Below, piece after piece: positions 6,146-49,079 of a stretch of 64,000 bases of DNA. The notes under the pieces are model-generated. The model was not told where the DNA came from and searched no databases. It saw nothing but the letters and a program-made list of their open reading frames with translations. The stretch comes from Siphonodentalium dalli (taxonomy: Eukaryota > Mollusca > Scaphopoda > Gadilida > Siphonodentaliidae), in the NCBI GenBank assembly GCA_032622095.1, contig CP136066.1:52728609-52792608 (forward strand), written 5' to 3'. Made by a program: the position numbers and the translations under genes. Positions within the stretch are counted from its first letter, which is position 1. Each line of letters begins with the position of its first letter.

Positions 6146-6390
6146 TTAATTGAAGAAATCTTGGCACAGCCAGAGGTTTTGTTGATCGTTCGTATTTTTG
6201 AACAGTGACGTTTGGGCGCTCCCGCTTTGAGCAAAGATCACCAGATAATCCTTCGATGCTGTGGTTTGTGCCGTAGGATCCCACCAACCGTTAGTCTCCA
6301 GCTGGGAATGCGTATATAAATCCTGGTCGGTATAGTCTGATACGAATCTGAGTGGATCAGCCAGCTCCAAACCAGTGATCCAGAACTCCT
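6146..6390 (-). CDS. exon 12: C-terminal half of C-type-lectin-like domain, with stop
   Basis: The acceptor is TTTTCGTCCACAG, and the frame then runs 80 codons to TAA at 6146. It opens EFWITGLEL, the typical buried strand of C-type lectin folds, continues with TNGWWDP and DYLVIFA, and closes LWLCQ, where the last cysteine of the fold normally sits. The WND and EPN/QPD calcium-sugar motifs of classical lectins are absent, and only one cysteine is present. Binding, if any, is therefore probably not classical mannose or galactose recognition. Phase fits the donor at 8102/8103. No membrane anchor follows, so the protein ends with this domain. Confidence 0.75.
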
Positions 6391-8102
6391 CTGTGGACGA
6401 AAATATTTAACAACGTCACGTGACACAATTTCAACCAACCAACATGCTGCTTTCAGATTCCACCGGCGAACAAATAACATAAAGTGTGAATATAAAGATT
6501 CCAATTATGATATGATAGACATAAAGAGCGTTTGTTTTACTTATCTGTGAAAAATGGCTGTGACCATGCACGGTAAGTCTTGTTTCAGAGCACATGAAGA
6601 CGGTATATTGACATTTCGTATATGCCTCAACCTATCTTTTACCTCCATCGAAATTACGTTGAAAACAGTTATAAGTTCGAATGAGCCATGTCTCTTTAAT
6701 ATAACAGAATATATTAGCAGTATAAACCAAACCCAATCAATTCAATGCAATATTTCAGTAAGCCTTCAGTAAGCCTTCAGTAAGCCTTCAGTAAGCCTGC
6801 CACAAATGAAATAGCTAGTTGATGAACTTCAACTCTTTCTATTGTTATCTGTCGTACAATCTATACGGTGGCCAAGAGGTCGGGGATTATGGATGTATTA
6901 CCACAATGATTAATTTGTTCTTGTGTATATGCTATTATTTAATTTTGGGAAATATTTAGACCAATATAGATAGTATGCTACGCCAATGACAATAAAGGAG
7001 GAAGTAGTCAATTAATACATAACATCCAACTTAAAATTGTGTTGTGAAATTGGAGGTCAGTCTTGAAAATGCTGATTTGTTTACACTTTGCTTTGACAAA
7101 TCACTATCTTTCCAAAAGACAACCAAGGCGGCCAGGTATTTTAATATAATTCAAATGTAATGCATATGTAGTTAAATTACATGCCTTTTGGTGAAATAAT
7201 GCGAACAAAGGTTGCACTACACATTACTGTGCATTACTTTTAAAAAGAGGTGCATTGTAATGCATCACCATTACACACCACCATTACCTCACCTATGGTA
7301 TGTAGATTATAAGGAGATGTTGAATTTGTATTTAAGACGTTTATAGAGTATATTAGGTGTCTTATAAATGGCTGGATTTATTAAATCACGTTAATGACTT
7401 ACTAATTTTAAATCCAAAAGCGAAGATAGATTTGCGAAGTAGATCCAGATATGCTAAGACAACGCAGAGTTACCGGAGATTACGATTGGTAAAAGTTAAG
7501 GGTCAGACGCACGTTTTGTCAAAATGTCCTGGTATTTCAAAATGAAGTTCTCAAAATATTTCAGGAATTTATTTGTGATATTTGGTACAAGCGAATGCTG
7601 TGACACATAAATTGCTAACCGTCAACCCATTGGACATTATAACCTCATTTGCTTTACTTCGATGGCATGAAACCTATTTAAAATTCCACTATCTTCCGGT
7701 ACCAAGAACTGTAAAATATATCTTTTCAAAAGTACAGTTCATATTATATCCATGCTATCATATCTGAAGATCACGAGGAAACTACATGTATCCATAAATA
7801 ATTTTCTATATTTGAGAATTTTCGTTCGATAACTGTTGACCAATGAAAAATGGGTCTGATGTGAGCTCAATGTCGTGTTTTCACCACAAAGTTAAGCTGA
7901 CTACCATATGTATGTGACCTTATGCCAGTTGATTGCTCCCTACTTGGGTGGACCGGAGGCATGGACGCTCTTTATAAGCGGCGGTCACTGGATTATTGCC
8001 AGGATGAAACACATTCAAAATGTGTTAACACTTCCTCTTTTGACAGTCGATACACAATTGCTGGGACAACACTCATTCGGATTAGTTGGTGACGTAACTT
8101 AC
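6391..8102 (-). other. intron 11
   Basis: Phase-1 intron between the two lectin-domain exons, GTAAGT...CCACAG on the minus strand. It holds a small 11-bp tandem repeat (6754-6797) and otherwise nothing I can identify. Confidence 0.6.
6754..6797. repeat. 11-bp tandem repeat
   Basis: Four exact copies of TTCAGTAAGCC in tandem. Small intronic minisatellite. Confidence 0.9.
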
Positions 8103-8312
8103 GTTGTGGTTGCAATTCACACAATATTACAGCCTGCTGCAACCATGCACCAACGGCTTCAATGTTGCTGGCGTCGACAGTTAATAGGCCTCCATAGGTA
8201 GTGTCACACAGCTCTTTAGCGTCGGCTCTGTTCATCTTATTTTTGCCACATATCGTATCTTTCGGACTTGCATGGCATTCTCCATCAATCTCAATTTCGC
8301 CATTTCTGCATA
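8103..8312 (-). CDS. exon 11: N-terminal half of C-type-lectin-like domain
   Basis: This 210-bp exon (70 codons, phase 1-1) has acceptor ATTATACAG and donor GTAAGT. The frame begins CRNGEIEIDGEC and continues with NRADAKELCDTTYGGLLTVD, which fits helix 1 and strand 2 of the C-type lectin fold: an aromatic/Ala-rich helix ending in Cys, then GG-x-L. IEAVGAWLQQA then fits helix 2. It joins in frame to exon 12 at FWITGLEL, where the fold continues. Cysteines before the fold suggest the long-form domain with an N-terminal hairpin. The next exon upstream in the model is the EGF at 24806-24919. Confidence 0.7.
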
Positions 8313-8448
8313 CTGTATAATGTATGAACGTATGGCTAATGTATGCACGAATGGATACCATATGAACAAATGGATAATGTAGTAGACATCTTTCGCACAA
8401 TGGACCTTTACGTATAAGAATTGTGAATAGCTAATGGGAGGCCCCTAC

Positions 8449-8460
8449 CCCCCCCCCCCC
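8449..8460. repeat. poly-C tract
   Basis: A run of about 12 C residues within GGCCCCTACC...TTCGTACG. Nearby 8463-8770 contains repeated GTACGCCGTATTCC-like words but no gene. Confidence 0.8.
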
Positions 8461-12805: not shown

Positions 12806-12849
12806 TTCAGTGCCATTTGCAAGTCTGATTTTTGTATCAACCCATATAC

Positions 12850-13085
12850 CCTGTGCCAATGCATTCTCTTATATATGCGAGTCGACCATAGGTCGCCTCG
12901 CATATATAAGAGAATGCATTGGCCTAACATTTTTTTTACAATTGTAATAAGTTGTTCTTGTATTCTTTAACAATTTTATAATTTCACCCATGCAGAGCCC
13001 CAGACAAACATGAGCAGACGACACTCTTCTATATGCTTCTCTATATGTGTGGGGCTCCCTGCAGGGTAATGGATGTTTTTTTATT
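12850..13085. mobile_element. palindrome MITE, partial copy
   Basis: One 69-bp palindrome (12855-12923) begins GCCAATGCATTCTCTTATAT. The AT-rich spacer follows, then the AGAGCCCCAGACAAACATGAG...GGGGCTCCCTGCAGGG block seen in inverse order at 26630-26700. The second terminal palindrome is missing. It lies between two end fragments of the GGCCGG MITE, suggesting a nested insertion. Confidence 0.65.
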
Positions 13086-13724
13086 TTGATTCATTTGTTG
13101 CACATTATTACGTTGAGTGTGAAAGGAGATGGTTCCGTACATGGACGGGTTTCGTGTACAGTAAGACAGTAAAACGATGTAGTAGTCAGATATCGATGAG
13201 AGGAGTGCACTTTCTAACATTTTTAATTGAGTTATTTTAGTTCTATTGAAGGAAGCTGTTGACACTCACTTCTCTGTTATGGCGTACATTCGCTGCCCTG
13301 GGTGACATTGGGAATGGGGTGCTACACATGGGCACTATAATTGATAACATTGAGTTGGTTCCAAAATCAGCTGCAAATTTGTATTAGGCATTTACATGAT
13401 ATGAAGATACTACTAGTTTCGTGTGGCATCAAAATTTATAACAGCAACATTGACAATAGAAAATTTAACCATATGTATACAATGTTTGGTTACTGTTTAC
13501 AGCTAAGCTGTGTGTCAAGTTATTGAATCACTCAGTGAGTATTCCGGAATGATCCAATCTGGAAGCATGTTACACTGATCTACGTTCGTTGAGATTCCAA
13601 CCACGTCCATTGCGCCATTCCAAACTAACATAAATAAATAATGTCCTAAGTATGCGCAGTTGTAACTATTTACTTCTTTTCTCGGGAAGAATTAATCGCG
13701 ATAAACAAATGTCAATTATTCTGA

Positions 13725-15176: not shown

Positions 15177-15716
15177 ATACGATACAGGCGGAATCCGGCA
15201 GAATCCGGCGTGCGATACAGGCGGAATCCGGCGTGCGATACAGACGGAATCCGTATTAATGATACAGGTGGAATCCGGCGTACGATACAGGCGGAATCCG
15301 GCATGCGAAACAGGCGATATCCGGCGTACGATACAGACGGAATCCGGCATACAATACCGGCGGAATACGGCGTGCGATACTGATGGAATACGACATACGA
15401 TACAGGCGGAATCCGGCATACGATACAGGTGGAATCTGGCATACGATACAGGCGAAATCCGGCATACGATACAGGCGGAATCCGTATTAATGATAAAGGT
15501 GAAATCCGGCGTACGACACAGATGTAATGCGACATACTACACAGGCGTAATCCGGCATACGATACCGGCGGAATCCGGCGTGCGATACAGGCTGCATACG
15601 GTGCACGATACAGGTGGAATACGGCGTACGATTAATCCTGAATCCGGCGTACGATACAGACGGAATCCGGCGTATGATACAGGCGGAATCCGGCGTACGA
15701 TACAGGCGGAATCAAG
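15177..15716. repeat. 23-bp minisatellite, about 23 units
   Basis: Tandem units with the core GATACAGGCGGAATCCGGCG and length variants. Because 23 is not divisible by 3, the repeat cycles through all frames, and the consensus lacks stops. Long open frames therefore appear on both strands (about 224 codons plus, 153 codons minus). I regard them as repeat artefacts. Confidence 0.9.
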
Positions 15717-21379: not shown

Positions 21380-23100
21380 GACTTCCGAGTCAAACTACCA
21401 TTTGCTGGTATGATTTGTAAATAAGAGATTCTTGGTCTGGGGTCGTTGACTTTATTGCAAATTTAACTTCACAGGATATGGCATCATACACAATAGGATA
21501 TATACTTGGTTCTGCTCGCACCACGTGATTCGATGCCATACGATTTACCCAAAGCGCATATTTACAAAAAACGTATGTGAGTTGTTTCACACGGCACGGT
21601 TTCAAGATTGTTCAGATTCATGTCGGAGGCCCATGCTTCACAACCACAAAGTGCAATTGGTTTGATGAGCTTATCGAAGAGCGTGTTCCAAACCCTGAGT
21701 GAATATATATAATTTTGTCTTAAAGATTTAATCAGTGCATACATTGCCTTCATGCTTTTATTATGGACATTAAGTTGCGCCTTTTTAAATGATCCATTGG
21801 CACAAAATGTAATGCGAAGGTATGTATTTTCTTTGACAATACCGACAGAGGAATCACCTATTTTGAATGAGAAATCGTTTCGACTGTTTTCTTTCTGAAA
21901 TTCTATGCACTTTGTCTTCTTAATTGTTAAACTATTCTGACTTACATATTTGTGCAATTTTAGTAAACAGTTTTGAAAACCATGTTGTGACTCCGACACC
22001 AAAACAAGTTCAAGACACAAAGATAATGTGATGGATAAAGGTATCACAACCTCTATTGGGGCACACGACTTGTCAAAACCATTTGATACATCGTCTACAA
22101 AAATATTGAAAAGTTTGGGGATAGAAATAATCCATATCTTACCCCAATATTTGATAGCATTTTTCGTCCAACACCATCTCGAGTCTGTGTCATATAATAG
22201 CTAGAATTGTACATTGACTTTGGTATATGGAGTGTTTTGTCTGTTATTCATATATTACATACTTTCTGGAATAAAATTTTCCTGTCCACAGAATCAAACG
22301 CCGTTCGGAGTTCTATACATGCTGGAGAACGCTGTTTTGATTGCTTTCGGTATCTGGCTATCATTGTTTTCAAAATGAAGGCGCTATCAAAATACGTTTA
22401 TTTTTACGGAAGCCAAATTGGTTTTCACTGATCAAATTGTTTTCTTCTAAGAATGCCGTAATCCTTTTTTTAATTATTTTATTGAAAAATTCCCAAGCGA
22501 GCTCTAAGAGCAATTGCTCTATAGTTATTGGGGTCGGTACGGTCCCCTTTCTTGTGGATCGGGTTGAGAACAGATTCGCTCCAAGAGACGGGATAATTGG
22601 ATTATTGGTACACAACATTGCAGAGTCGTGTAACATCATCAATTAACATTGGTATAATCGTTTTCAGTAGTTCATTATCGATCCCGTCTTCACCAGATTT
22701 GTTATTCTTAATTTCTCGTAATGCATTGATAACTTCCTTGGGCGCTATCTATTCGTTATTAAGATTGTTCTTAATTATCGGTCCATCTTTCTTGGGTATA
22801 CATCGGTGGTTCCAACAGCCCTGCCGAATAAATCATTGAAAAATGAGAACTGTTTAGCTTCTCTCAAATTATGTATAATCTTCCAGTACTCGCTCAGATC
22901 AGATGCTTCTAGTGTGTTTAGTCTTTCTTCGAGTGTTTGGTGAAAAAGTTTACGCTTGTATTTTAGTTCTATAGGCCTTCTTAGCGACAAAGAACTTATG
23001 TATTAAAGATTTGTCAAATGGATTAGTTTTCATGTCACATACTATTGCTCTCACATTACCATTGACGGTTTTACATGTATCATCATACTATTATCGTTTC
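21380..23100 (-). pseudogene. LINE (non-LTR) reverse transcriptase remnant
   Basis: Reading down the minus strand gives pieces of a LINE ORF2 in several frames. The order is NNKSGEDGIDNELLK (about 22690), SVLNPIHKKGDRTDPNNYR (about 22535), ENNLISENQFGFRKN (about 22400) and LTIKKTKCIEFQ (about 21915). FCKYALWVNRMASNHVV follows at about 21540. These are the finger/palm and thumb blocks of Jockey/RTE/CR1-like elements. Stops and frameshifts break it, and the catalytic YADD stretch is not intact. It sits in intron 10 of the EGF/lectin gene, in the same orientation. The 5' part may continue to about 23.7 kb. Confidence 0.75.
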
Positions 23101-23706: not shown

Positions 23707-24678
23707 TTTCATGTTCGCTTCACGTTTCAAGTAAATAAATACGGACGACTTCGTGGACACTAATACAAATGGAGATAAGCCTCAAACATGTTAATCACGA
23801 ATAACCTTCAACACAACCTCACTTGCAAACTTGCAGAGTTGCACAACATGCAATATAAACGACGAATTGTGCCAACACAATTCCATCAAACAGAAGGCCC
23901 TAAGCGAAACTGTCATTACTTGCACATTTCGTAATACGTAAACAACACCCCGTGTACGTGATATCGCCAAACCCGAGGGTATCACGAAATCCGAGAATTG
24001 CGGTTATGATAAATGAACATATCTTCCCTCAGATGAAGCTATATATCTGCCAGTTAAATGGTGATATTCACTGCTTATTCAAAACATAGTTTCCCAAAGC
24101 GGAATGTTCCCTCAATGGGATAGCGACTATAGCTTGCTCTCACCCCGATAAATTTAATAGAAATTCCGACTCATTTCCGATTTTATCATAAACAGTAGAC
24201 ACTTTTTGACGTTAGGTAGTTCGTTTGAAACATAATTATCAGCCATAGATGGCGGATAACGCGTGTGTCAATAGAAAAATATATGTTTAATTAACCATAA
24301 AATTGTCTAGCCTGCAGAGCGGTTCTGAAAAATACTATTTGCGTCCAAGTGTGGGTACCCACCATAATTTCGGGTATCAAAGCCGCAGATCGAGATGTTG
24401 CCAAACACATATCTGGGATGTCAAAGATGCGAATGATATACTTCACATTTTGACCACTTCTGCTTGAAAATATCCCAATTATCATTCGGACAGGCATGCA
24501 CATGGATCATATTTAGAGTGGGGTGCATGCACAAGGGTGAAAACGTGTATGTTTGTTTGTGTTTTATGTTCTTATGTCATATTAATAGTATAGGCTATTT
24601 GTGTTATTCGACATTATAGGCCCGGGACTGTATTCATTTGTTTCTGTCAGTGTAATGTGGTGCATGTAACTGTCGAAA
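23707..24678. repeat. segmental duplication, left copy
   Basis: Matches 34144-35060, for example ACTAATACAAATGGAGATAA and ATATCTTCCCTCAGATGAAG, with scattered substitutions and indels. Both copies lead directly into an EGF A-type exon, so this is intron sequence that belonged to the ancestral EGF module. Confidence 0.85.
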
Positions 24679-24805
24679 CTGGCGTTTTTCGTTGATAATA
24701 GTCAAGTAAGTGTTCACATTTTGTCGTTCTTCCAGTGGATGGATCATTTTCACATATGTACCGGTAGTCGAATGGGTGTAATTTCAATAATTTAGCATCA
24801 CTTAC

Positions 24806-24919
24806 TAGGTTCACATATGTCACCTTCGAAGCCTGTAATACAAGTACAAGTGAAACTATTTTCGCCGTCAGTGCAATTTCCTCCGTTCAGGCACGGATTG
24901 GAATCACAATCGTCGATAT
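24806..24919 (-). CDS. exon 10: EGF-like domain, A type, unit 1
   Basis: 38 codons, phase 1-1, acceptor TTGATTACAG and donor GTAAGT. The six cysteines follow EGF spacing: IDDC, NPC, GNC, FTC, TC and DIC. IDDC fits a calcium-binding EGF, and C-T-D-x4-F-T-C fits the Asp beta-hydroxylation site. It ends CEP, where unit 2 has CET and unit 3 has CES. This is the last EGF before the lectin exons in the model. Confidence 0.85.
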
Positions 24920-25171
24920 CTGTAATCAAAGAACTGAATGTACTTATATAAATATACGTTGGCACGGTCTATTACTCGTTTGGGGGGTCCTGGTTATACA
25001 ACCACCACACGGACAGTTGAAAAGCTAATACGGGTGCAGCAGGATTCATATGTTTTGGTTGTCTGTTGAACTTATTACCTGATCAGTTCGAAGGGATATA
25101 CGTATAGGTTACAAACAGCTAACTAGTCTCCATATGAGACAGTGTTAACTATAAGTCCTGTTGGTGATGGG

Positions 25172-25510
25172 TTAACCCGTTGGAGAGTATCTGTAACGTC
25201 ATATACATGACGTCAAGAGTAAATTTAACGTCAACGTCATAGCAATAATTATTAACAAGTTCGGGACAAAATGGTCCAATAATTCGTTTTAATGTATGTG
25301 CATTTTTGTTAACGTGTGTTATCATAATCGATTGCACTTATACATTTGGGACATTATATTAATAAAAATAACTCCTATACAAATCATTTATAAATGATTT
25401 ATTGAAGTTATGTCTACATAAAATAACACTTCCTGAAACGACTTATATGTCGTTCTACTCCTCAACCGATAGACGACATATATAGGTCGTTCTACTCGCC
25501 AAAGGGTTTA
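25172..25510. mobile_element. TTAA-type MITE in unit 1
   Basis: Starts TTAACCCGTTGGAGAGT and ends CTCGCCAAAGGGTTTA, an imperfect inverted terminal repeat next to TTAA/TTTA. Inside is a hairpin-prone run with two CGACATATA.GTCGTTCTACTC words. No coding capacity. It was copied with the unit into 28068-28411 and 30963-31306. Confidence 0.65.
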
Positions 25511-26267
25511 GCCACTTTCAAGTTCAAGTGGTCAATTTTCCCTTAGAATGTCATCTGATACACCAGACGGTTACAACAAACACGCCATTTCCGGTATTTG
25601 TTCAAAATATGTCCGCCTTTTTGGCGCCATTTGGTATTTGCGGGACATTTTATTGGATGATATATAAGGAAAGTACTTAGCCTCAGTATTACCAACTCAC
25701 AAGAGTAATAATGTGTGTAGTTATCGTAATAATAACGCTGACTGATGTGGAAGACAGCGATTTTCGATGATTTTTTTAATTTTTGGTCGACATTGTGTCC
25801 GCCATCTTGGATATGGTGATTATTTCTGATCTCGAGTATAAGAGTAATCCTACCTCGGGTATTTCATAGACATGTACAACGCATGAATGGAGTTTTAATA
25901 GCAATAACACCCACTTATTCGAAACAGACATTACGCGATTAGCGTCGATTTGGCTTTGATCGGATTATACCGGTATTTGTGAAAACGTGATAGCGGGCAA
26001 AAATATCTGTTTAACATTTCGGCCGCCATCTTGGCCGCCATATTTGATTTTGGTGTCGGATTTTGGGCCAGTTTGTAAGTATCGTATGTTGGAATAACGA
26101 GCGGATAATAGTATGCTGTGGTATCACACAATTATATACTACGACATTATACGTTTCGAAAATAATTAATTCTATGCGATAAAAACAAGTACCATAGATT
26201 CATTGTAGCTTTATGAAGAACCTGAATACAGCTAAGTTGCTTATTAATATATTATTCATGAACTTAC

Positions 26268-26378
26268 TGTTATCGCAGTCAGTCCCATCATAACCACTGT
26301 CGCAAATGCACTCGTAAGAATCAACCCCATCAATACAGCGGCCGTGTTCGCACAGTGAGGAGTCACAATCATTTATGT
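26268..26378 (-). CDS. exon 9: EGF-like domain, B type, unit 1
   Basis: 37 codons, phase 1-1, acceptor ATATTTCAG and donor GTAAGTTC. Six cysteines fit an EGF domain, with INDC, LCEHGRC and YECIC. INDC at the start and C-I-D-x4-Y-E-C fit calcium binding and hydroxylation. It differs from units 2 and 3 by SSLC instead of SSPC. Confidence 0.85.
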
Positions 26379-26454
26379 CTGAAATATCAATAAACAATGT
26401 GAGGCCCGACCAACCGCATATATACGCTGTCAATATGTTAGTTATCAAAGTTGA

Positions 26455-26870
26455 CCCTGTGCCAATGCATTCTCTTATATATGCGAGTCGACCATATGTC
26501 GCCTCGCATATATAAGAGAATGCATTGGCCTAACAATTTTTTATAATTTTTTTAATAACTTTTTCTGACATTCTTTAGCAATTTTTAGGACATAAAATAA
26601 AAAATATACAGAGTGTCAATAACACTGCAGGGAGCCCCACACATATATAGAAGCATGTGTATTGATTGTCGTCTGCTCATGTTTGTCTGGGGCTCTGTGT
26701 GGGTGAAATTATAAAATTGTTAAAGAATATAAGAACAAATTATTAAAATTGTAAAACATTGTAAAAAATAATAACAAATGATAACAAATTGTTTGGCCAA
26801 TGCATTATGTTATATATAAGAGGCGACCTATGGTCGACTCGCATATATAAGAGAATGCATTGGCATAGGG
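26455..26870. mobile_element. palindrome MITE in unit 1
   Basis: Bounded by CCCTGT...ATAGGG, with terminal 69-bp palindromes at 26461-26529 and 26796-26864 (the second slightly mutated). Between them is a central CTGCAGGGAGCCCCACACAT...GGGGCTCTGTGTGGG segment that itself folds. The outer TTAACCCTTTACCC ends of the full element are missing here. Confidence 0.8.
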
Positions 26871-27702
26871 TATTACTATTCTGTATAATCACAAAGGACA
26901 ACGTGGAGGCACTCAATGAATAATATCAATCAGTTCATGTCCATATACTATGATCATAGGAAGAGTGTAGCAATGAACTAAGATTGTCGAAAATTCCAAA
27001 CATATTAACTGACTATGGTACAATATTTATACAAATATAAAGGACAGTTCGGAAATTCCAAATACTATTCATGTTTGCATGTATGTTACTATGCATTGTG
27101 TGTATTCTCCAGAGTTGTTGGCCATTATAAATAAATATATATATATACCTTTGAAAAATATATTTCGTTTGATTTTCTTCGTGTTAAATGCCTGTAAATA
27201 CTAATTACCCTTGTATTGTGCTCTTGTTCACTATCTATAAGCTCTCTGTATTACGGAGGAAATAAAGGTATATATATTGAATCTGAACAGTACAAAACAT
27301 TCCTTTGGGGAGATACAACATTTGCGATCGTAATACTCGTCAGGATTGGCACACAACGACCCTAATATTTGTTTGTGATATCCCCTCAATATTATATTCA
27401 AGAGTTTTATATATGATTATAGTCTGCGTGCGTGGATACGAAATACATGCCATCTAATCAATTATGTATAAAACACCAGGCAGAGTTATCTCCCATCGCT
27501 CCGCTGAGATATATGGAGTTTGTTATGTACATGTATAGTGTAGTTATACTTGGTTTAGTTGGTAGGAGGAAGAATCTGGAGTTTTTCGTTGATAATAGTC
27601 AAGTAAGTGTTCACATTTTGTCGTTTTTCCAGTGGATGGATCATTTTCACATATGTACCGGTAGTCGAATGGGTGTAATTTCAATAATTTAGCATCACTT
27701 AC

Positions 27703-27816
27703 TAGTTTCACATATGTCACCTTCGAAGCCTGTAATACAAGTACAAGTGAAACTATTTTCGCCGTCAGTGCAATTTCCTCCGTTCAGGCACGGATTGGAA
27801 TCACAATCGTCGATAT
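27703..27816 (-). CDS. exon 8: EGF-like domain, A type, unit 2
   Basis: 38 codons, phase 1-1, intact AG acceptor and GTAAGT donor. Same six-cysteine calcium-binding EGF pattern as exon 10 (IDDC start), ending CET. The near identity to exon 10 reflects the tandem duplication. Confidence 0.85.
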
Positions 27817-28067
27817 CTGTAATCAAAGAACTGAATGTACTTATATAAATAGACGCTGGCACGGTCTATTACTCGTTTGGGGGGTCCTAGTTATACAACC
27901 ACCACACGGACAGTTGAAAAGCTAATACGGGTGCAGCAGGATTCATATGTTTTGGTTGTCTGTTGAACTTATTACCTGATCAGTTCGAAGGGATATACGT
28001 ATAGGTTACAAACAGCTAACTAGTCTCCGTATGAGACAGTGTTAACTATAAGTCTCGTTGGTGATGG

Positions 28068-28411
28068 TTAACCCGTTGGAGAGTATCTGTAACGTCATAT
28101 ACTTGACGTTACGAGTAAATTTAACGTCAACGTCATAGCAATAATTATTAACAAGTTCGGGTCAAAATGGTCCAATAATTCGTTTTAATGTATGTGCATT
28201 TTTGTTAACGTGTGTTATCATAATCGATTGCACTTATACATTTGGGACATTATATTAATAAAAATAACTCCTATACAAATCATTTATAAATCAGATGATT
28301 TATTGAAGTTATGTCTACATAAAATAACACTTCCTGAAACGACATATATGTCGTTCTACTCCTCAACCGATAGACGACATATATAGGTCGTTCTACTCGC
28401 CAAAGGGTTTA
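28068..28411. mobile_element. TTAA-type MITE in unit 2
   Basis: Copy of 25172-25510, with a few substitutions and a small insertion (CAGA) in the middle. It was duplicated with the unit and did not insert independently. Confidence 0.6.
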
Positions 28412-29168
28412 GCCTCTTTCAACTTCAAGTGGTCAATTTTCCCTTAGAATGTCATCTGATACACCAGACGGTTACAACAAACACGCCATTTCCGGTATTT
28501 GTTCAAAATATGTCCGCCTTTTTGGCGCCATTTGGTATTTGCGGGACATTTTATTGGATGATATATAAGGAAAGTACTTAGCCTCAGTATTACCAACTCA
28601 CAAGAGTAATAATGTGTGTAGTTATCGTAATAATAACGCTGACTGATGTGGAAGACAGCGATTTTCGAAGATTTTTTTAATTTTTGGTCGACATTGTGTC
28701 CGCCATCTTGGATATGGTGATTATTTCTGATCTCGAGTATAAGAGTAATCCTACCTCGGGTATTTCATAGACATGTACAACGCATGAATGGAGTTTTAAT
28801 AGCAATAACACCCACTTATTCGAAACAGACATTACTCGATTAGCGTCGATTTGGCTTTGACCGGATTATACCGGTATTTGGGAAAACGTGATAGCGGGCA
28901 AAAATATCTGTTTAACATTTCGGCCACCATCTTGGCCGCCATATTAGATTTTGGTGTCGGATTTTGGGCCAGTTTGTAAGTATAGTATGTTGGAATAACG
29001 AGCGGATAATAGTATGCTGTGGTATCACACAATTATATACTACGACATTATACGTTTCGAAAATAATTAATTCTATGCTATAAAAACAAGTACCATAGAT
29101 TCATTGTAGCTTTATGAAGAACCTGAATATAGCTAAGTTGCTTATTACTATATTATTCATGAACTTAC

Positions 29169-29279
29169 TGTTATCGCAGTCAGTCCCATCATAACCACTG
29201 TCGCAAATGCACTCGTAAGAATCAACCCCATCAATACAGCGGCCGTGTTCGCACGGTGAGGAGTCACAATCATTTATGT
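29169..29279 (-). CDS. exon 7: EGF-like domain, B type, unit 2
   Basis: 37 codons, phase 1-1, intact splice sites. Reads INDC, SSPC, HGRC, YEC, IC and TDC. Six cysteines, calcium-binding signature present. Confidence 0.85.
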
Positions 29280-29355
29280 CTGAAATATCAATAAACAATG
29301 TGAGGCCCGACCAACCGCATATATACGCTGTCAATATGTTAGTTATCAAAGTTGA

Positions 29356-29771
29356 CCCTGTGCCAATGCATTCTCTTATATATGCGAGTCGACCATATGT
29401 CGCCTCGCATATATACGAGAATGCATTGGCCTAACAAGTTTTTATAATTTTTTTAATAACTTTTTCTGACATTCTTTAACAATTTTTAGGACATAAAATA
29501 AAAAATATACAGAGTGTCAATAACACTGCAGGGAGCCCCACACATATATAGAAGCATGTGTATTGATTGTCGTCTGCTCATGTTTGTCTGGGGCTCTGTG
29601 TGGGTGAAATTATAAAATTGTTAAAGAATATAAGAACAAATTATTAAAATTGTAAAACATTGTAAAAAATAATAACAAATGATAACAAATTGTTAGGCCA
29701 ATGCATTATGTTATATATCTGAGACGGCCTATGGTCGACTCGCATATATAAGAGAATGCATTGGCATAGGG
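29356..29771. mobile_element. palindrome MITE in unit 2
   Basis: Palindromes at 29362-29430 and 29697-29765. The second has mutated to TTATATATCTGAGACGGCC, which weakens its stem. Otherwise like 26455-26870. Confidence 0.8.
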
Positions 29772-30597
29772 TATTACTATTCTGTATAATCACAAAGGAC
29801 AACGTGGAGGCACTCAATGAATAATATCATTCAGTTCATGTCCATACACTATGATCATAGGAAGAGAGTAGCAATGAACTAAGATTGTCGAAAATTCCAA
29901 ACATATTAACTGACTATGGTACAATATTTATACAAATATAAAGGACAGTTCGGAACTTCCAAATACTATTCATGTTTGCATGTATGTTACTATGCATTGC
30001 GTGTATTCTCCAGAGTTGTTGGCCATTATAAATAAATATATATATATACCTTTGAAAAATATATTTCGTTTGATTTTCTTCGTGTTAAATGCCTGTAAAT
30101 ACTAATTACCCTTGTATTGTGCTCTTGTTCACTATCTATAAGCTCTCTGTATTACGGAGGAAATAAAGGTATATATATTGAATCTGAACAGTACAAAACA
30201 TTCCTTTGGGGAGATACAACATTTGCGATCGTAATACTCGTCAGGATTGGCACACAACGACCCTAATATTTGTTTGTGATATCCCCTCAATATTATATTC
30301 AAGAGTTTTATATATGATTATAGTCTGCGTGCGTGGATACGAAATACATGCCATCTAATCAATTATGTATAAAACACCAGGCAGAGTTATCTCCCATCGC
30401 TCTGCTGAGATATATGGAGTTTGTTATGTATAGTGTAGTTACACTTGGTTTAGTTGGTAGGAGGAAGAATCTGGCGTTTTTCGTTGATAATAGTCAAGTA
30501 AGTGTTCACATTTTGTCGTTTTTCCAGTGGATGGGTCATTTTCACATATGTACCGGTAGTCGAATGGGTGTAATTTCAATAATTTAGCATCACTTAC

Positions 30598-30711
30598 TAG
30601 ATTCACATATGTCACCTTCGAAGCCTGTAATACAAGTACAAGTGAAACTATTTTCGCCGTCAGTGCAATTTCCTCCGTTCAGGCACGGATTGGAATCACA
30701 TTCGTTGATAT
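30598..30711 (-). CDS. exon 6: EGF-like domain, A type, unit 3
   Basis: 38 codons, phase 1-1. Starts INEC rather than IDDC, which is closer to the classical calcium-binding EGF consensus and to the diverged copy at 35174-35287. Ends CES. Splice sites intact. Confidence 0.85.
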
Positions 30712-30962
30712 CTGTAATCAAAGAACTTAATGTACTTATATAAATATACGTTGGCACGGTCTATTACTCGTTTGGGGGTCCTGGTTATACAACCACCACA
30801 CGGACAGTTGAAAAGCTAATACGGGTGCAGCAGGATTCATATGTTTTGGTTGTCTGTTGAACTTATTACCTGATCAGTTCGAAGGGATATACGTATAGGT
30901 TACAAACAGCTAACTAGTCTCCATATGAGACAGTGTTAACTATAAGTCCCGTTGGTGATGGG

Positions 30963-31306
30963 TTAACCCGTTGGAGAGTATCTGTAACGTCATATACTTG
31001 ACGTCACGAGTAAATTTAACGTCAACGTCATAGCAATAATTATTAACAAGTTCTGGACAAAATGGTCCAATAATTCGTTTTAATGTATGTGCATTTTTGT
31101 TAACGTGTGTTATCATAATCGATTGCACTTATACATATGGGACATTATATTAATAAAAATAACTCCTATACAAATCATTTATAAATCAGATGATTTATTG
31201 AAGTTATGTCTACATAAAATAACACTTCCTACAACGACATATATGTCGTTCTACCCCTCAACCGATAGACGACATATATAGGTCGTTCTACTCGCCAAAG
31301 GGTTTA
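30963..31306. mobile_element. TTAA-type MITE in unit 3
   Basis: Copy of 28068-28411 with the same CAGA insertion, so units 2 and 3 share this difference from unit 1. Confidence 0.6.
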
Positions 31307-32063
31307 GCCTCTTTGAACTTCAAGTGGTCAATTTTCCCTTAGAATGTCATCTGATACACCAGACGGTTACAACAAACACGCCATTTCCGGTATTTGTTCA
31401 AAATATGTCCGCCTTTTTGGCGCCATTTGGTATTTGCGGGACATTTTATTGGATGATATATAAGGAAAGTACTTAGCCTCAGTATTACCAACTCACAAGA
31501 GTAATAATGTGTGTAGTTTTCGTAATAATAACGCTGACTGATGTGGAAGACAGCGATTTTCGAAGAATTTTTTAATTTTTGGTCGACATTGTGTCCGCCA
31601 TCTTGGATATGGTGATTATTTGTGATCTCCAGTATAAGAGTAATCCTACCTCGGGTATTTCATAGACATGTACAACGCATGAATGGAGTTTTAATAGCAA
31701 TAACACCCACTTATTCGAAACAGACATTACGCGATTAGCGTCGATTTGGCTTTGATCGGATTATACCGGTATTTGGGAAAACGTGATAGCGGGCAAAAAT
31801 ATCTGTTTAACATTTCGGCCGCCATCTTGGCCGCCATATTTGATTTTGGTGTCGGATTTTGTGCCAGTTTGTAAGTATCGTATGTTAGAATAACGAGCGG
31901 ATAATAGTATGCTGTGGTATCACACAATTATATACTACGACATTATACGTTTCGAAAATAATTAATTCTATGCGATAAAAACAAGTACCATAGATTCATT
32001 GTAGCTTTATGAAGAACCTGAATATAGCTAAGTTGCTTATTAATATATTATTCATGAACTTAC

Positions 32064-32174
32064 TGTTATCGCAGTCAGTCCCATCATAACCACTGTCGCA
32101 AATGCACTCGTAAGAATCAACCCCATCAATACAGCGACCGTGTTCGCACGGTGAGGAGTCACAATCATTTATGT
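32064..32174 (-). CDS. exon 5: EGF-like domain, B type, unit 3
   Basis: 37 codons, phase 1-1, intact acceptor ATATTTCAG and donor GTAAGTTC. The six-cysteine calcium-binding EGF pattern equals unit 2 (SSPC). Confidence 0.85.
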
Positions 32175-32250
32175 CTGAAATATCAATAAACAATGTGAGG
32201 CCCGACCAACCGCATATACACGCTGTCAATATGTTAGTTATCAAAGTTGA

Positions 32251-32658
32251 CCCTGTGCCAATGCATTCTCTTATATATGCGAGTCGACCATATGTCGCCT
32301 CGCATATATAAGAGAATGCATTGGCCTAACAATTTTTTATAATTTTTTTAATAACTTTTTCTGACATTCTTTAACAATTTTTAGGACATCAAATAAAAAA
32401 TATACAGAGTGTCAATAACACTGCAGGGAGCCCCACACATATATAGAAGCATGTGTATTGATTGTCGTCTGCTCATGTTTGTCTGGGGCTCTGTGTGGGT
32501 GAAATTATAAAATTGTTAAAGAATATATTATTAAAATTGTAAAAAATTGTAAAAAATAATAACAAATGATAACAAATTGTTAGGCCAATGCATTATGTTA
32601 TATATGCGAGACGACATATGGTCGACTCGCATATATAAGAGAATGCATTGGCATAGGG
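32251..32658. mobile_element. palindrome MITE in unit 3
   Basis: Palindromes at 32257-32325 and 32584-32652. The spacer is 8-10 bp shorter than in units 1 and 2 (GAATATATTATTAAAATT instead of GAATATAAGAACAAATTATT). Confidence 0.8.
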
Positions 32659-33358
32659 TATTACTATTCTGTATAATCACAAAGGACAACGTGGAGGCAC
32701 TCAATGAATAATATCAATCAGTTCATGTCCATACACTATGATCATAGGAAGAGTGTAGCAATGAACTAAGATTGTCGAAAATTCCAAACATATTAACTGA
32801 CTATGGTACAATATTTATACAAATATAAAGGACAGTTCGGAAATTCCAAATACTATTCATGTTTGCATGTATGTTACTATGCATTGCGTGTATTCTCCAG
32901 AGTTGTTGGCCATTATAAATAAATATATATATATACCTTTGAAAAATATATTTCGTTTGATTTTCTTCGTGTTAAATGCCTGTAAATACTAATTACCCTT
33001 GTATTGTGCTCTTGTTCACTATCTATAAGCTCTCTGTATTACGGGGGAAATAAAGGTATATATATTGAATCTGAACAGTACAAAACATTCCTTTGGGGAG
33101 ATACAACATTTGCGATCGTAATACTCGTCAGGATTGGCACTCAACGACCCTAATATTTGTTTGTAATATTCCCTCAATATTATATTCAAGATAGAGTTTG
33201 ATATATAATTATAGTCTGCGTGCGTGGATACGAAATACATGCCATCTAATCAATTATGTATAAAACTCCAGGCAGGGTTATCTCCCATCGCTCCGCTGAG
33301 ATATATGGAGTTTGTTATGTATAGTGTAGTTATACTTGTTTTAGTTGGTAGGAGGAAG

Positions 33359-33925
33359 ACAGCACCGACAGGGCTAGGTTACCACCAAACATATACAGCA
33401 TTACCGCGTTATTTGTTACTGTCATTATATTATTCATGTATGTGTGTATTGTAAATTAAATATAATAGTGCATGTATACATAAACGGTATGATAGGAGAG
33501 TGAGTTCAAACAAATCAATGGGCCTATGTTAAGTTTGTTACCCTTTTGTTACGATCATCCCCCAACCATCTGAGCAAGATTATGGATGAGCGATTAAGTA
33601 TCCACGTTAATGTAATTTAGAAAGGTATACTTGCGCGATTATTAAATATAATACGGTGGTGCAAAAGGATGCAGCACGAATTTTATCTGACTAGTGTCAG
33701 TTGGCTACTTTGTTGTTAACGATGGTGTATATCGTAAGGTCCCCAATTGCCACAGCGCCATTTAATATAACCCGATTTCACTATTTATTTTTCCGAATAA
33801 TTATCAGACAAAACAGAAGATTGGGTATATTAGTTTACAAAGGCCTTTTGGCAGTAAAATTTATCACGCGGTGTTATGAGACCGACTGTTATATGTAACG
33901 AAATAAGTTTCATCTGTTGTTATAA

Positions 33926-34143: not shown

Positions 34144-35060
34144 ACGCTTCACGTCTCAAGTAAATACATAATGACGAATTCGTGAACACTAATACAAATG
34201 GAGATAAGCATCAAACATGTTAATCACGAAGAACCTTCAACACAACCTCACTTACAGACGCAGAGTTGCACAACATGCAATATAAACGACTAATTGTGCG
34301 AAAAAAAATTCATCAAACAGAAGGCCCCAAGCGAAACTGGCATTACTTGCACATTTCGTAGAACGTAAACAACGCACCCGTGTACGTGGTATCCTCAAAC
34401 CCGAGGTTATCACGAAACCCGAGAATTTTGGTTTTGTTAAATGAACATATCTTCCCTCAGATGAAGCTATATATCTGCCAGTTAAATGGTGATATCCACT
34501 ATTCAAAACAGAATGTTCCCTCAATGGGATAGCGAAAATAGCTTGCTCTCACCCCGATAAATTTAATAGAAATTCCGACTCATTTCCGATTTTATCATAA
34601 ACAGTAGACACTTTTTGACGTTAGGTAGTTCGTTTGAATCATAATTATCAGCCATATATGGCGGACAACGCGTGTGTCAATAGAAACATATATGTTTAAG
34701 TAACCATAAGATTCGGTTCGAAAAAAATACTATTTGCGTCCAAGTGTGGGTACCCACAATAATTTCGGATATCAAAGCCGCATATCGAGATGTCGCTAAA
34801 CACAGATCTGGGATGTCAAAGATGTGAATGATATGCTTCACATTTTGACCGTTTCTGCTTGAAAATATCCCAATTATCATCCGACAGGCCGTCACATGTA
34901 TCATCTTTATGGTGGGGGTGCATGTGCACGGGTTAAAACGTGTATGTTTGTTTGTGTTTTATGTTCTAATGTAATATTAATAGTATAAGCTATTCTGTGT
35001 TATTCGACAGTATAGGACCGGAACTGTACTCATTTGTTTCTGTCAGTCCAATGTGGTGCA
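34144..35060. repeat. segmental duplication, right copy
   Basis: Diverged copy of 23707-24678, with deletions (for example about 30 bp near 34700). With exon 4 and its downstream intron it is a single-copy relative of the tandem unit, older than the three-copy expansion. Confidence 0.85.
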
Positions 35061-35173
35061 TGTAACTGTCAGGTAAGTGTTCACATTTTGTCGTTTTTCC
35101 AGTGGATGAATCATTTTCACATATGTACCGGAGGTCGAATGGGTGTAATTTCAATAATTAATGCATCACTTAC

Positions 35174-35287
35174 TAGTTTCACAGATGTCACCTTCGAAGC
35201 CTCCAGCACAGTCACAATTGAAACTATTTACGTCGTCAGTGCAATTTCCTCCGTTCAGGCACGGATTGGGTTCACACTCGTTGATAT
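35174..35287 (-). CDS. exon 4: EGF-like domain, diverged A type
   Basis: 38 codons, phase 1-1, acceptor TTGATTACAG and donor GTAAGT. Calcium-binding EGF starting INEC and containing NPC, GNC, FNC, DC and DIC. Coding changes relative to the A exons of the tandem units lie mainly between cysteines 3 and 6 (FNCDCAGG versus FTCTCITG). The reading frame, cysteines and splice sites are all kept, which suggests it is functional. Confidence 0.85.
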
Positions 35288-35877
35288 CTGTAATCAAAGA
35301 ACTGAATGTACTTAACCCTTTGTTGACTAAATGGAATCTTACGTGTAGTTATATAAATATACGTTGGCACCGTCTATTACTCATTTGGTGGGGGTCCTGG
35401 TAATATAACCACCAGACGGACAGTTGAAAAGCTAATACGGGTGCAGCAGGATTCATATTCGTTGGTTGTCTGTTGAACTTATTACCTGAGCATTTCTAAG
35501 GGATATACGTATAGGTTACAAACAACTAACTAGTTCCCCAGTTAACAGTGTTAACTATAAGTCACACCGGTGATGGGTTAAGCCTATTAACAAACAAATA
35601 ATTAGTTCTCATAGGCGACAGTGTTAACTATAAGTCCCGCCGCCGATGGCTTAAGCCTACTTACAAACAACTAATTATTGTCCACAGGCGACCTTGTTAA
35701 CTGTAATTCCCGCCGGCGATGTGTTAAACCTATTTGAACTTTAAGTGGTCAATTTCCCCTAAGAACGTCATCTGATATACCAGACGGTTACAACAAACAC
35801 GCCATTTTCGGTATTTTTTTCAAACTATAATCTTGCATTTCCACAACTACCCCATTTTCTGCACACAAGTCAGCGGT

Positions 35878-36188: not shown

Positions 36189-36588
36189 TTAACCCTTTAC
36201 CCAATAGAACGGCCCTGTGCCAATGCATTCTCTTATATATGCGAGTCGACCATAGGTCGCCTCGCATATATAAGAGAATGCATTGGCTTAACACATTAAA
36301 AATTATAAAATTGTTTAAGAATGTAAGAAAAAATGGTAAAAAGTGTTAAAAAACGATTTTTTTTAGGCCAATGCATTCTCTTATATATGCGAGGCGACCT
36401 ATGGTCGACTCGCATATATAAGAGAATGCATTGGCACAGGGCATAACTGTTACTATCACAATGTGGTCAAGGAGCCGGTTCCAATGATATCCATATGTGT
36501 ATGGTTCTATTGAGACAGACCGAAGATATTTTAGGCTGTTGAAGCTTTATTTGGCCGGTTTTGGCCGGTTTGTTGGGTAAAGGGTTAA
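36189..36588. mobile_element. piggyBac-type MITE with two nested palindromes, copy 2 (inverted)
   Basis: TTAA on both sides (36189-36192, 36585-36588) with CCCTTTACCCAA ends and palindromes at 36219-36287 and 36367-36435. Flanking internal blocks such as CTGTTGAAGCTTTATTTGG match copy 1 at 4982-5436 in reverse. The two copies therefore define the full-length element as about 0.40-0.45 kb. Confidence 0.8.
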
Positions 36589-39414: not shown

Positions 39415-39519
39415 TTGTTTCACAAAGGTCTCCATCAAAACCTTGATCACAGCAGCAAGAGAAATTGCCTGCGAACCTCCGACCTTTAATACAGTGTCCG
39501 TGTTCACCACAATAACAAG
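39415..39519 (-). CDS. exon 3: first EGF-like domain (atypical)
   Basis: 35 codons, phase 1-1, acceptor TTGTTTTCCAG and donor GTAAGTG. Reads CYCGEHGHC, then FSCCCDQGFDGDLC. It has seven cysteines, an unusually short first loop and no calcium-binding D/N-x-D/N-E-C start, so it is a non-calcium EGF variant. The extra cysteine could form an intermolecular bond. It directly follows the acidic linker of exon 2 in the spliced message. Confidence 0.78.
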
Positions 39520-44372: not shown

Positions 44373-44404
44373 GGCACGGATTGGGATCACAGTCGTCGAC
44401 ATCG
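44373..44404 (-). pseudogene. truncated EGF A-type pseudo-exon
   Basis: The minus strand matches the start of the A exon (VDDCDPNPC), but the acceptor AG has become CG (TTGATTACCG) and similarity stops after NPC. Flanking intron sequence (44405-45250) matches 35290-36850. It is a dead first copy of the EGF module and is not included in the gene model. Confidence 0.8.
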
Positions 44405-45009
44405 GTAATCAAAGAACTGAATGTACTAAACCCTTTGTTAACTAAATGAAATCTTACGTGCAGTTATACAAGATATACGTTGGCACGGTCTATTAATCAG
44501 TGGGGTGTGTCCTGGTAATAAACCCATCCCCAATATAACCACCAGACAGACAGTTGAAAAGCTAATACGGGTGCAGCAGGATTCATAGTCGTTGGCTGTC
44601 TGTTGACTTTATTACCTGAGCATTTCTAAGGGATAATACCTATATGTAACAAACAACTAATTGGTTTCCATAGGCGACAGTGTTTTCTATATCCCGTTGG
44701 CGATAGATTAAACTTCAAGTGGTCAATTGTCCGTTAGAACGTCATCCGATACACCAGTCGGTGACAACAAACGCGTCCTTTTAGGTAATTTTCAAACGAT
44801 AATCTTGCATTTCCACAACTACCCCATTTACTGCACAAAAAATCAGCGGTATAAAAATACCCACACCACGTCCATAACTTCGGAACCCCACCAGACTCTT
44901 ACTGGCCATATAAACAAAAATGATCGGCATATTTACGTAGGCGATTATTTGTTTCCCGCTCAGGGAATTTTCGTTCAAAGATAATCGACCAATCAATACA
45001 CAAATTCAA

Positions 45010-46087: not shown

Positions 46088-46436
46088 ATTAAAGGGGTAC
46101 TGAACACTAAAGCCGGCCATTTATGGGACCATCTCCTTTTATAATCAACATAATATATGCAACAAATTGATTAATTTGAGCAATGTATGAGTCCAAAATA
46201 CTCCCATTTAGTTATGAACGATGTAAAACAAGATGGTAACTATAATGAAAATTAATTTATGGCTGGAGTCATAATTTCATTTTCATTATAATTACCATGT
46301 TGTTTGCATCATTCATAGAGCATATGAACATATTTTGCACTAATCCATGGCTCAAATTCATTCATTTGTTGAATATATTCTGTTGAATATAAAAGAAGAT
46401 GTTCCCATAAATGGCCGGATTTAGTACCCCTTTAAT
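46088..46436. mobile_element. GGCCGGATTTAGTACCCC MITE, complete copy
   Basis: Inverted ends ATTAAAGGGGTACTGAACAC and its near complement ending AGTACCCCTTTAAT, with arms of about 50 bp that include GGCCGG and CATTTATGGGA words. A partial duplicate of the left end lies just before it (about 46059-46087). No coding capacity. Half copies occur at 12621-12805 and 13089-13160. Confidence 0.75.
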
Positions 46437-46941
46437 GATCTGTTTGTTGCTAGAAATTCATCTTGTGGAAATCCAAATTTGGCCTCCCAAATCTCATATT
46501 AATTGGCTCATTTGTACGATTCAACTATATTCCAGTACTGATTGCGTGCATATTCCATCCGCCAAATTGAGACGCTTTGTGTGACTCAAGACGACAGACA
46601 CCTAGATATACTTATGTGCGTTGCCATACATATATATATATAAACCACAACTAGCAATACACCAGTAACCGTTCTAACTTTGAGTTCTACATACATATGC
46701 ACGATTTCTGATGATAAGTAATTACTTCACCGGTTGCTGACAGGGACCGGCGGGAGTTACATGACCTGTCATAATGTACATTCCCAAACTACGACTACAG
46801 TGCAGTTAAAATTCTTTCAGTTTGAATTATACCTTTTAATCAATAGTACAATGTTCAATTCTACAAATTAGTATTTATTGTTTGACCCTTCAACCGTGAA
46901 CATCGGACAGTGAATACTTAATTTATAATGAGATATTGTAC

Positions 46942-47112
46942 CTCCAACACCATTGGAGCTGGATAATACGCCGTCATCTGGGTTGGGTGGTTCGAGTTCA
47001 TCGGAGCTGGATGATTGGCCTTTATCTGGGTTGGGTGATTCGAGTTCAACGGAGCTGGGTGATTCGCCTTCAAGTCGTCTTACGCGGCTCTCGCCTTTCG
47101 GGAATTTCGACG
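46942..47112 (-). CDS. exon 2: acidic linker with furin-type site and 16-residue repeats
   Basis: 57 codons, phase 1-1. The acceptor is a T-rich run ending TTTTTTAACAG and the donor is G|GTACAA. The translation begins SKFPKGESRVRRLEGESPSS. RVRR fits the furin consensus R-x-K/R-R, so the mature protein may start at LEGES. After it come about 2.5 repeats of 16 residues (48 bp) built on SSSDELEPPNPD, acidic and Ser/Pro-rich. Such linkers are common in secreted matrix and adhesive proteins. The frame stays open in the joined transcript, but there is no domain match. Confidence 0.65.
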
Positions 47113-47546
47113 CTGTTAAAAAAAAACAAATTGAATTGTTTTATGAGAATTCCGGTGTAATAATTACGGCGAATAATTATGCCGTCCTCCAAAAATAATT
47201 TGACTGAATTTCATCTTTGATAGTTTGTGTTGAAATTGTAATAAACGGGATATCATTACTGAGAAATCAGACAGTTTAGAGATATTGATACAGATTATTT
47301 TTTTTGTATAAATATATAATTGTACCCCATCTTCCAACACATTTTTTAAACAATGCAAGAAAACCATGAAAATAATGATATGGTGGGAGTTGTAACGTTG
47401 AGTGCCGGCTACGAGTTATCTCGTAGTGCATTTATGCCATGTTGTTATGTGATCTAAGCTGATACATGACCAGTTTTGGGGTTTGAGGGTGGTTATATGG
47501 TGCTATCTACCTACTTAATACAAAATATAAAGTTGGCACCCGGAAT

Positions 47547-48961
47547 GTTAATTTAAGGGAGATGGCACCCTTATTATGTGTGTAGTGTATGCCACATCTG
47601 GTAACAGTGTATTAATTAAGGGAGATGGCACGCTAATTATTTGTGTAGTGTATAGCCACATCTGATAACAGTTTATTAATTAAGGTAGATGGCACCCTAA
47701 TTATTTGTGTAGTGTATAGCCACATCTGGTAACAGTGTATTAATTAAGGGAGATGGCACCCTAATTATCTGTGTAGTGTATAGCCACATCTGGTAACAGT
47801 GTATTAATTAAGGGAGATGGCACCCTACTTATTTGTGTAGTTTATAGCCACATCTGGTAACAGTTTATTAATTAAGGGAGATAGCACCCTAGTTATTTGT
47901 GTAGTGTACAGCCACATCTGGTAACAGTTTATTAATTAAGGGAGATGGCACCCTAATTATTTGTGTAGTGCATAGCCACATGTGGTAACAGTTTATTAAT
48001 TAAGGGAGATGGCACCCTAATTATTTGTGTAGTGTATAGCCACATCTGGTAACAGTTTATTAATTAAGGTAGATGGCTCCCTAATTATTTGTGTAGTGTA
48101 TAGCCACATCTGGTAACAGTTTATTAATTAAGGTAGATGGCACCTTAATTATTTGTGTAGGGTATAGCCACATCTGGTAACAGTTTATTAATTAAGGTAG
48201 ATGGCACCCTAATTATTTGTGTAGTGTATAGCCACATCTGGTAACAGTTTAGTAATTAGGGTAGATGGCACCCTAATTATTTGTGTAGTGTATAGCCACA
48301 TCTGGTAACAGTTTATTAATTAAGGTAGATGGCTCCCTAATTATTTGTGCAGTGTACAGCCACATCTGGTAACAGTTTATTAATTAAGGTAGATGGCACC
48401 TTAATTATTTGTGTAGTGTATAGCCATATCTGGTAACAGTTTATTAATTAAGGTAAGTGGCACCCTAATTATTTGTGTAGTGTATAGCCACATCTGGTAA
48501 CAGTTTATTAATTAAGGTAGAAGGCACACTAATTATTTGTGCAGTGATTAGCTACATCTGGTAACAGTTCATTAATTAAGGGAAATGGCACCCTACTGCT
48601 TTTTGCAGTGTATAGCCACATCTGGTAACAGTGTATTAATTAAGGTAGATGGCACCCTAATTATTTGTGTAGTGAATAGCCACATCTGGTAACAGTGTAT
48701 TAATTAAGGGAGATGGCACCCTAATTATTTCTGTAGTGTATATCCACATCTGGTAACAGTGTAATAATTAAGGGAGATGGCACCCTAATTATTTGTGTAG
48801 TGTATATCCACATCTGGTAACAGTTTATTAATTAAGGTAGATGGCACCCTAATTATGTGTGTAGTGTATAGCCACATCTGGTAACAGTTTATTAATTAAG
48901 GGAGATGGCACCCTAATTATTTATGTAGTGTATAGCCACATCTGGTAACAGTGTATTAATT
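47547..48961. repeat. 64-bp minisatellite, about 22 units, in intron 1
   Basis: Units follow TTAATTAAGGGAGATGGCAC, CCTAATTATTTGTGTAGTGT and ATAGCCACATCTGGTAACAG in tandem, with point differences (GGGAGATGG versus GGTAGATGG). The array ends at ATTAATTC, whose last bases are part of the minus-strand splice donor GTGAATTAAT of exon 1. The repeat therefore abuts the 5' splice site. There are no unique spacers, so it is not CRISPR-like. Confidence 0.95.
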
Positions 48962-48964
48962 CAC

Positions 48965-49079
48965 CTGTGTCAGGGTCCATCGCATCCTGTAGAATTTCGT
49001 CCATTGTCTTTGGTCTTCCGTTGACGAAGTGCAAACCACAGATCACAAAAACCATAATCGCCGCCTGTAACATAACCAT
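48965..49079 (-). CDS. exon 1: signal peptide
   Basis: ATG at 49079, then MVMLQAAIMVFVICGLHFVN, a hydrophobic core with small residues before a likely cleavage site near VNG/RP, followed by the charged stretch KTMDEILQDAMDPDT. The exon ends ACAG|GTGAAT in phase 1 and joins in frame to exon 2. A second in-frame ATG lies two codons in. The out-of-frame ATG at 49090 is not used here. A TATATATG word about 30 bp upstream is too close to be a convincing TATA box, so the 5' UTR may be on another exon. Confidence 0.72.

Follow-up and report, generated by a model that had tools for sequence, protein, structure and literature searches.

Does the minus strand of this scaphopod contig carry one long gene for a secreted protein of EGF domains with a lectin-like end, or do its exons belong to more than one gene? 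The window analysed here is the whole 64,000-nucleotide stretch of Siphonodentalium dalli contig CP136066.1 (assembly GCA_032622095.1, positions 52,728,609 to 52,792,608), in which the exon model, rebuilt base by base, runs on the minus strand from 49079 to 6146. The explanation that we consider probable is a single 12-exon animal gene encoding a 544-residue secreted protein, made of an EGF rod and a lectin-like end, in which a two-EGF unit was triplicated.

All 12 exons that a preliminary description of this DNA had proposed could be rebuilt, with lengths of 105–245 nt, and its statements on splice sites and reading phase held throughout: the introns are of GT-AG type (11/11) and the junctions lie in phase 1 (11/11). 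Joined, the exons give one frame of 1635 nt or 544 amino acids, and its sole stop is the last codon. The joined exons have a G+C content of 46%, compared with 37% for the whole span. The features of the model are as follows.

48965–49079, minus strand: exon 1, with the start codon and an N-terminus resembling a signal peptide (9-residue hydropathy of 3.13), donor GTGAAT
46942–47112, minus strand: exon 2, acidic Ser/Pro-rich linker with the furin-type site RVRR and a 24-bp/48-bp tandem repeat
39415–39519, minus strand: exon 3, EGF1, atypical, with C-Y-C spacing and 7 Cys
35174–35287, minus strand: exon 4, EGF2 (type B0, an older B-exon copy)
32064–32174, minus strand: exon 5, EGF3 (A1)
30598–30711, minus strand: exon 6, EGF4 (B1)
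29169–29279, minus strand: exon 7, EGF5 (A2)
27703–27816, minus strand: exon 8, EGF6 (B2)
26268–26378, minus strand: exon 9, EGF7 (A3)
24806–24919, minus strand: exon 10, EGF8 (B3)
8103–8312, minus strand: exon 11, lectin-like domain, first half
6146–6390, minus strand: exon 12, lectin-like domain, second half, and stop codon
5750–5755, minus strand: polyadenylation signal AATAAA, 390 nt downstream of the stop

The preliminary description had also held that every exon falls below the usual thresholds for calling open reading frames. This holds in part: exon 11 and the three A-type EGF exons (4/12) lie within stop-to-stop frames of at least 100 aa. The hydrophobic N-terminus of exon 1 was scored with a hydropathy script, not a dedicated signal-peptide predictor; the furin-type site RVRR of exon 2 occurs once in the protein. 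As a gene model, a secreted EGF plus lectin-like gene of small phase-1 exons is well supported. What speaks against it at the N-terminal end is that exons 1 and 2 together matched no Pfam family at E up to 10, and that repeats lie close to exon 1: a copy of an element resembling a miniature inverted-repeat transposable element (MITE) at a distance of about 70 bp, and an array of 22 copies of a 64-bp repeat 4 bp away. This array, at 47548–48961, stops just short of the end of exon 1 (48965) and occupies the opening part of intron 1.

The EGF part of the protein is, at the level of sequence comparison, beyond doubt. Pfam PF00008 matched the 544 residues with E = 1.2e-37 in 7 stretches, and the nearest PDB sequences, among the best 60 of 83 matches, were the EGF arrays of Delta-like 1 (E = 1.5e-52) and Notch1. 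The earlier count of eight EGF domains can be kept with a reservation on EGF1, which has seven cysteines and a one-residue first spacing; it matched the Teneurin-type EGF profile PF23106 (E 0.00019, 21.8 bits), under the cut-off of that profile. The other seven domains are ordinary, and in copy A3 a leucine replaces the proline before the second cysteine. Sequence patterns were used for calcium binding, Asx hydroxylation, O-glucose, O-fucose and the EGF_1 signature. The first two fit seven of the eight domains, all but EGF1, and the O-glucose consensus was present in five of eight, the O-fucose consensus in none of eight. Calcium binding by the EGF array is no more than likely on these patterns, Pfam EGF_CA having reached 12.9 bits against a cut-off of 27; this score and the EGF_1 signature, which had 0 matches in the protein, count against the proposed model.

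An objection to a single gene is the distance of 16.5 kb, from 24.8 to 8.3 kb, that separates the EGF exons from the lectin-like exons. This gap holds 103 minus-strand stop-to-stop frames of at least 38 aa, 96 of which were scanned after the seven in an array at 15.05–15.72 kb had been dropped; exons surrounded by an open frame of less than 38 aa escape such a scan. At E up to 0.05, the sole EGF match among the 96 frames was a known EGF exon, which served as positive control, and reverse transcriptase was matched on two frames. At E up to 1, Lectin_C was not among the best 25 of 31 families, which included a weak match to Planc_extracel (E 0.099), and no other convincing extracellular domain appeared in the 96 frames. 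A relaxed hydropathy scan for signal peptides, crude but able to recover exon 1, found 0 first exons as strong as exon 1 on either strand of the gap at threshold 3.0; at 2.5 there were 3 candidates on the minus and 5 on the plus strand.

The alternative that follows from this distance is that of two genes, an EGF-array gene at 49.1–24.8 kb and, at 8.3–6.1 kb, a second gene for a small secreted lectin-like protein, with a first exon that went undetected. Small secreted C-type lectins are common in animals, and our scans would overlook a terminal exon that encodes no known domain. However, the phase-1 acceptor of exon 11 fits the donor of exon 10, and at threshold 3.0 the signal-peptide scan found nothing in the gap. 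We regard two genes as unlikely and favour one gene spanning the EGF and lectin-like exons, which the present sequence comparisons suggest and do not prove. Single weak matches in the gap to zinc_ribbon_6, a TFIIS ribbon, S-antigen, nSTAND3 and GH101_dom-5, the best with E 0.01, were taken as chance. The gap also contains a 23-bp tandem array (15197–15713, about 22 copies), and its long open frames on both strands are probably repeat artefacts.

The Lectin_C match of the last domain depends on how its two exons are joined. Neither exon 11 alone nor exon 12 alone had a Pfam match. Joined at the GTAAGT donor, they give a piece of 151 aa that matched Lectin_C over positions 2–106 of 107 with E = 0.056; nine extra residues of EGF8 on this piece changed the value to E = 0.068. 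There was no Lectin_C match for the reversed piece, for three shuffles of it or for two other in-frame junctions of exons 11 and 12. The lectin-like fold of the preliminary description finds weak backing in the joined exons, at 14.6 bits and under the Pfam cut-off of 22.6, the profile level for the superfamily; the comparison with Pfam models came out positive for EGF and fell short for Lectin_C. Besides this sub-threshold score, several results tell against a C-type-lectin-like domain (CTLD). No Lectin_C match appeared at E up to 1 when all 544 aa were scanned, the lectin-like part had 0 matches to PDB sequences at E up to 10, and NCBIfam gave no match at E up to 1. An AlphaFold model of exon 12 alone (pLDDT 45.5) was uninformative and too poor for a fold search. 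Because Lectin_C stayed under its cut-off and was missing from the whole-protein scan, we call the domain lectin-like and do not assign it to the CTLDs.

Canonical Ca2+- and sugar-binding C-type lectins carry EPN or QPD plus WND in their CTLD. None of these motifs occurs in the lectin-like part, and the only EPN of the protein is in EGF2; classical sugar binding is therefore not expected. Their lack, together with the missing PDB match and a Lectin_C match confined to the 151-aa piece, would also suit some extracellular fold other than a CTLD. We hold such a fold to be improbable, since the Lectin_C match covers nearly the full profile and depends on the consensus splice junction, and since exon 12 opens with FWITGL, which is similar to the WIGL motif of CTLDs. 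We have moderate confidence that the last domain is a diverged CTLD, correctly spliced, and consider its C-type-lectin fold as such to be weakly supported by the comparisons made.

Within the EGF array, six of the eight exons sit in three head-to-tail units of 2.9 kb that are about 98% alike, introns included. Older duplicates of the B exon lie further upstream in the gene.

30467–33359, minus strand: tandem unit 1 (EGF A1 and B1)
27572–30466, minus strand: tandem unit 2 (EGF A2 and B2)
24675–27571, minus strand: tandem unit 3 (EGF A3 and B3)
34145–35584, minus strand: older duplicate block around B0 (exon 4), homologous to 23716–25178 around B3 (exon 10), 84.8% over 1507 columns
44373–44711, minus strand: remnant of a dead EGF-B block that retains the exon only at its start, with CG in place of the acceptor AG and an early stop

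Each unit contributes two EGF domains (225 coding nt) in frame. Outside the exons the pairs of units differ at 52/2661, 45/2657 and 41/2665 sites (1.5–2.0%); the two exons vary at 5/225 sites, and 4 of the 5 changes alter an amino acid. The alignment of the units has 73 variable gap-free columns, with 30, 23 and 17 private changes per copy and 3 columns in three states. The two inner junctions between units show 1 difference in the 46 bases printed, and because they are nearly identical, one duplication followed by unequal crossing-over would be the simplest history. The close likeness of the units might also betray an assembly artefact, either over-counted copies or a collapsed longer array. 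We give this little credence: the variable columns with private changes in every copy are unlike a copied contig end, and the inner junctions have nearly the same sequence. The locus is then a clean case of an extracellular protein growing exon by exon, in which a two-EGF unit was triplicated along with its introns and four domains were gained without cost to the frame, all exons being phase 1, with an older dead copy nearby. The preliminary description mentions neither the three units nor the dead EGF exon near 44.4 kb, nor the lack of sugar and calcium motifs in the last domain.

The palindromic MITE-like element near exon 1 lies at 49148–49324, upstream of the start codon by about 70 bp; ACTGCAATCCGGACCATA flanks this copy on both sides. 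Related copies were seen around 5122–5290, 12845–13087, 26454–26871, 29355–29772, 32250–32659, 36297–36451 and 51745–52245. One copy lies inside each 2.9-kb unit, so that the element probably predates the triplication. An exact 23-base pattern taken from it was absent from viral_contigs and genome_contigs.

The older block allowed the exon to be compared with its surroundings. B0 and B3 differ at 16/114 exon sites and 111/1262 sites outside (one-sided Fisher p = 0.052), B0 and B1 at 15/114 and 30/341 (p = 0.12), and B0 and B2 at 15/114 and 34/341 (p = 0.22); the 21 splice-border sites, counted separately, had 0 differences in each of these comparisons. Shorter flank comparisons gave 91–95% identity, and the full-block counts were used instead. 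As many as 16 differences are reached by 1.7% of the non-exon windows of 114 sites. By NG86, dN/dS of B0 over 38 codons was 0.96, 1.6 and 1.8 against B1, B2 and B3, and among B1–B3 dN was 0.011–0.034 with dS 0. Two of these observations are unfavourable to a working coding exon: B0 changed no more slowly than the introns, so that coding constraint is not apparent, and the 11 amino-acid changes between B0 and B3 equal what random changes would give (mean 11.2). We do not claim positive selection; the higher rate in the exon does not reach significance (lowest p = 0.052). The B0 pattern fits domains held by their cysteines with loose or changing loops, and would be compatible with diversifying selection as well as with weak constraint. 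That the locus is a decaying pseudogene or otherwise inactive, its EGF copies spread by segmental duplication only, seems very unlikely to us: the dead copy at 44.4 kb, the substitution pattern of the exon, in which amino-acid changes are not depleted, and the leucine in A3 would agree with it, but 1635 nt without internal stop or frameshift and intact splice dinucleotides in 12 exons argue against it, as does, in a suggestive way, the finding that 16 changes placed at random in B0 kept all cysteines and made no stop in 6.6% of 20000 simulations.

If the single gene is accepted, its product would be exported from the cell by way of the signal peptide, and a furin-type protease would cut after RVRR, thereby removing a short propeptide. 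With calcium, the EGF array may form a stiff rod. The C-terminal lectin-like domain would bind a partner; a protein or a component of the matrix is likelier than a sugar held at the classical site, because EPN, QPD and WND are absent. An adhesion or matrix role is a reasonable proposal for such a build. The EGF exons measure 105, 111 or 114 nt and begin and end in phase 1, so that the rod could be made longer or shorter by unequal crossing-over, or by exon skipping, with the frame kept intact; the 2.9-kb repeats would be a product of this process.

A bolder idea takes the ascidian egg coat as its model. According to excerpts of PMC9265791, individuals differ in the EGF repeats of HrVC70, namely in the stretch from the third to the fourth cysteine and in the connecting regions; the protein derives from a protease-processed precursor with a ZP domain, HrVC120, and a gamete-binding role is reported. 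An array of EGF repeats is what the two proteins share, and the difference lies in HrVC120 having a ZP domain, not a CTLD. By analogy, the EGF rod studied here might be a fast-evolving recognition module of variable copy number, with two-EGF units gained and lost in frame and residues between the cysteines changing at least as fast as introns; joined to a lectin-like end without sugar site, it could make a protein for self/nonself, gamete or microbe recognition, variable in rod length and loop sequence. We put this forward as a long shot. Should the number of units vary among individuals, or the loops be under diversifying selection, the locus would offer a recognition gene open to direct testing; failing that, its product would be an ordinary modular extracellular protein.

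Several known proteins resemble parts of this arrangement. SEEC proteins of CTLD group XVI, presumably those called CLEC18 today, share with it EGF domains followed by a CTLD. The relevant portion of PMC514892 gives their order as SCP-EGF-EGF-CTLD, with QPD in the CTLD; here, by contrast, there was no SCP match (Pfam, E up to 1, as for the other domains named below), there are eight EGF domains and QPD is lacking. In lecticans, or hyalectans, EGF likewise precedes the CTLD. Lecticans have a CCP domain after the CTLD, and Link domains, whereas we found no CCP, Link or Ig match and the lectin-like domain is terminal. In that same portion of PMC514892, the domains given for a versican fragment are EGF, CTLD and CCP. 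The thrombomodulin/CD93 family (CTLD group XIV) also combines a CTLD with several EGF domains. In thrombomodulin-type proteins the CTLD is N-terminal and is followed by EGF domains and a mucin-like region (excerpts of PMC6852297), and by a membrane anchor. Here the order is reversed, nothing follows the lectin-like domain, and no membrane anchor was seen in the protein by eye. Although the arrays of Notch and Delta were the nearest solved EGF sequences within the 60 best matches, and share the O-glucose consensus found in five domains, the protein had no LNR or DSL match and lacks the O-fucose consensus.

The preliminary description had known no named family with this order. EGF before CTLD is in fact on record, in SEEC and in versican (PMC514892, in the portion cited); an EGF array with a terminal CTLD and no other domain was not noticed in the parts of the literature covered, which is not proof of absence. 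According to the sections of PMC10140915 on this point, multi-domain CTLD proteins of metazoans mostly come about through domain arrangements particular to a species, so that an unnamed order is to be expected and is not remarkable. The term EGF is absent from the main text of that paper, which deals with bivalve CTLDs. EGF arrays and CTLDs, in separate proteins, are among the candidate adhesive and shell components of oysters in the part of PMC6337334 concerned. Searches for relatives were negative: the whole protein gave 22 pattern matches and no relative in genome_contigs, and exon 12 gave 3 pattern matches and no relative by tblastn in viral_contigs. We would class the protein as one more secreted modular protein built on an EGF array, here with a lectin-like end, ordinary in kind and unusual in build.

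As to the rest of the window, ARAGORN found no tRNA and Rfam had no match at gathering scores. A Ty3/gypsy-type element at 60302–63228 on the plus strand carries reverse transcriptase (E 3e-33) and aspartyl protease, with a Ty3 capsid match just under cut-off; a reverse transcriptase frame compared with viral_contigs had 4 pattern matches and no relative by tblastn. A stretch of 212 bp at 61241 is repeated identically at 63204. On the minus strand, 21565–22200 has a weak reverse transcriptase match (E 0.01). Frames at 50415–51415 on the plus strand look by eye like those of a long interspersed nuclear element, and the frame scanned there (50864–51412) was without a Pfam match at E up to 0.1. 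An inverted repeat at 54864–55416 has arms of 268 nt that are 95% complementary and lie 17 nt apart.

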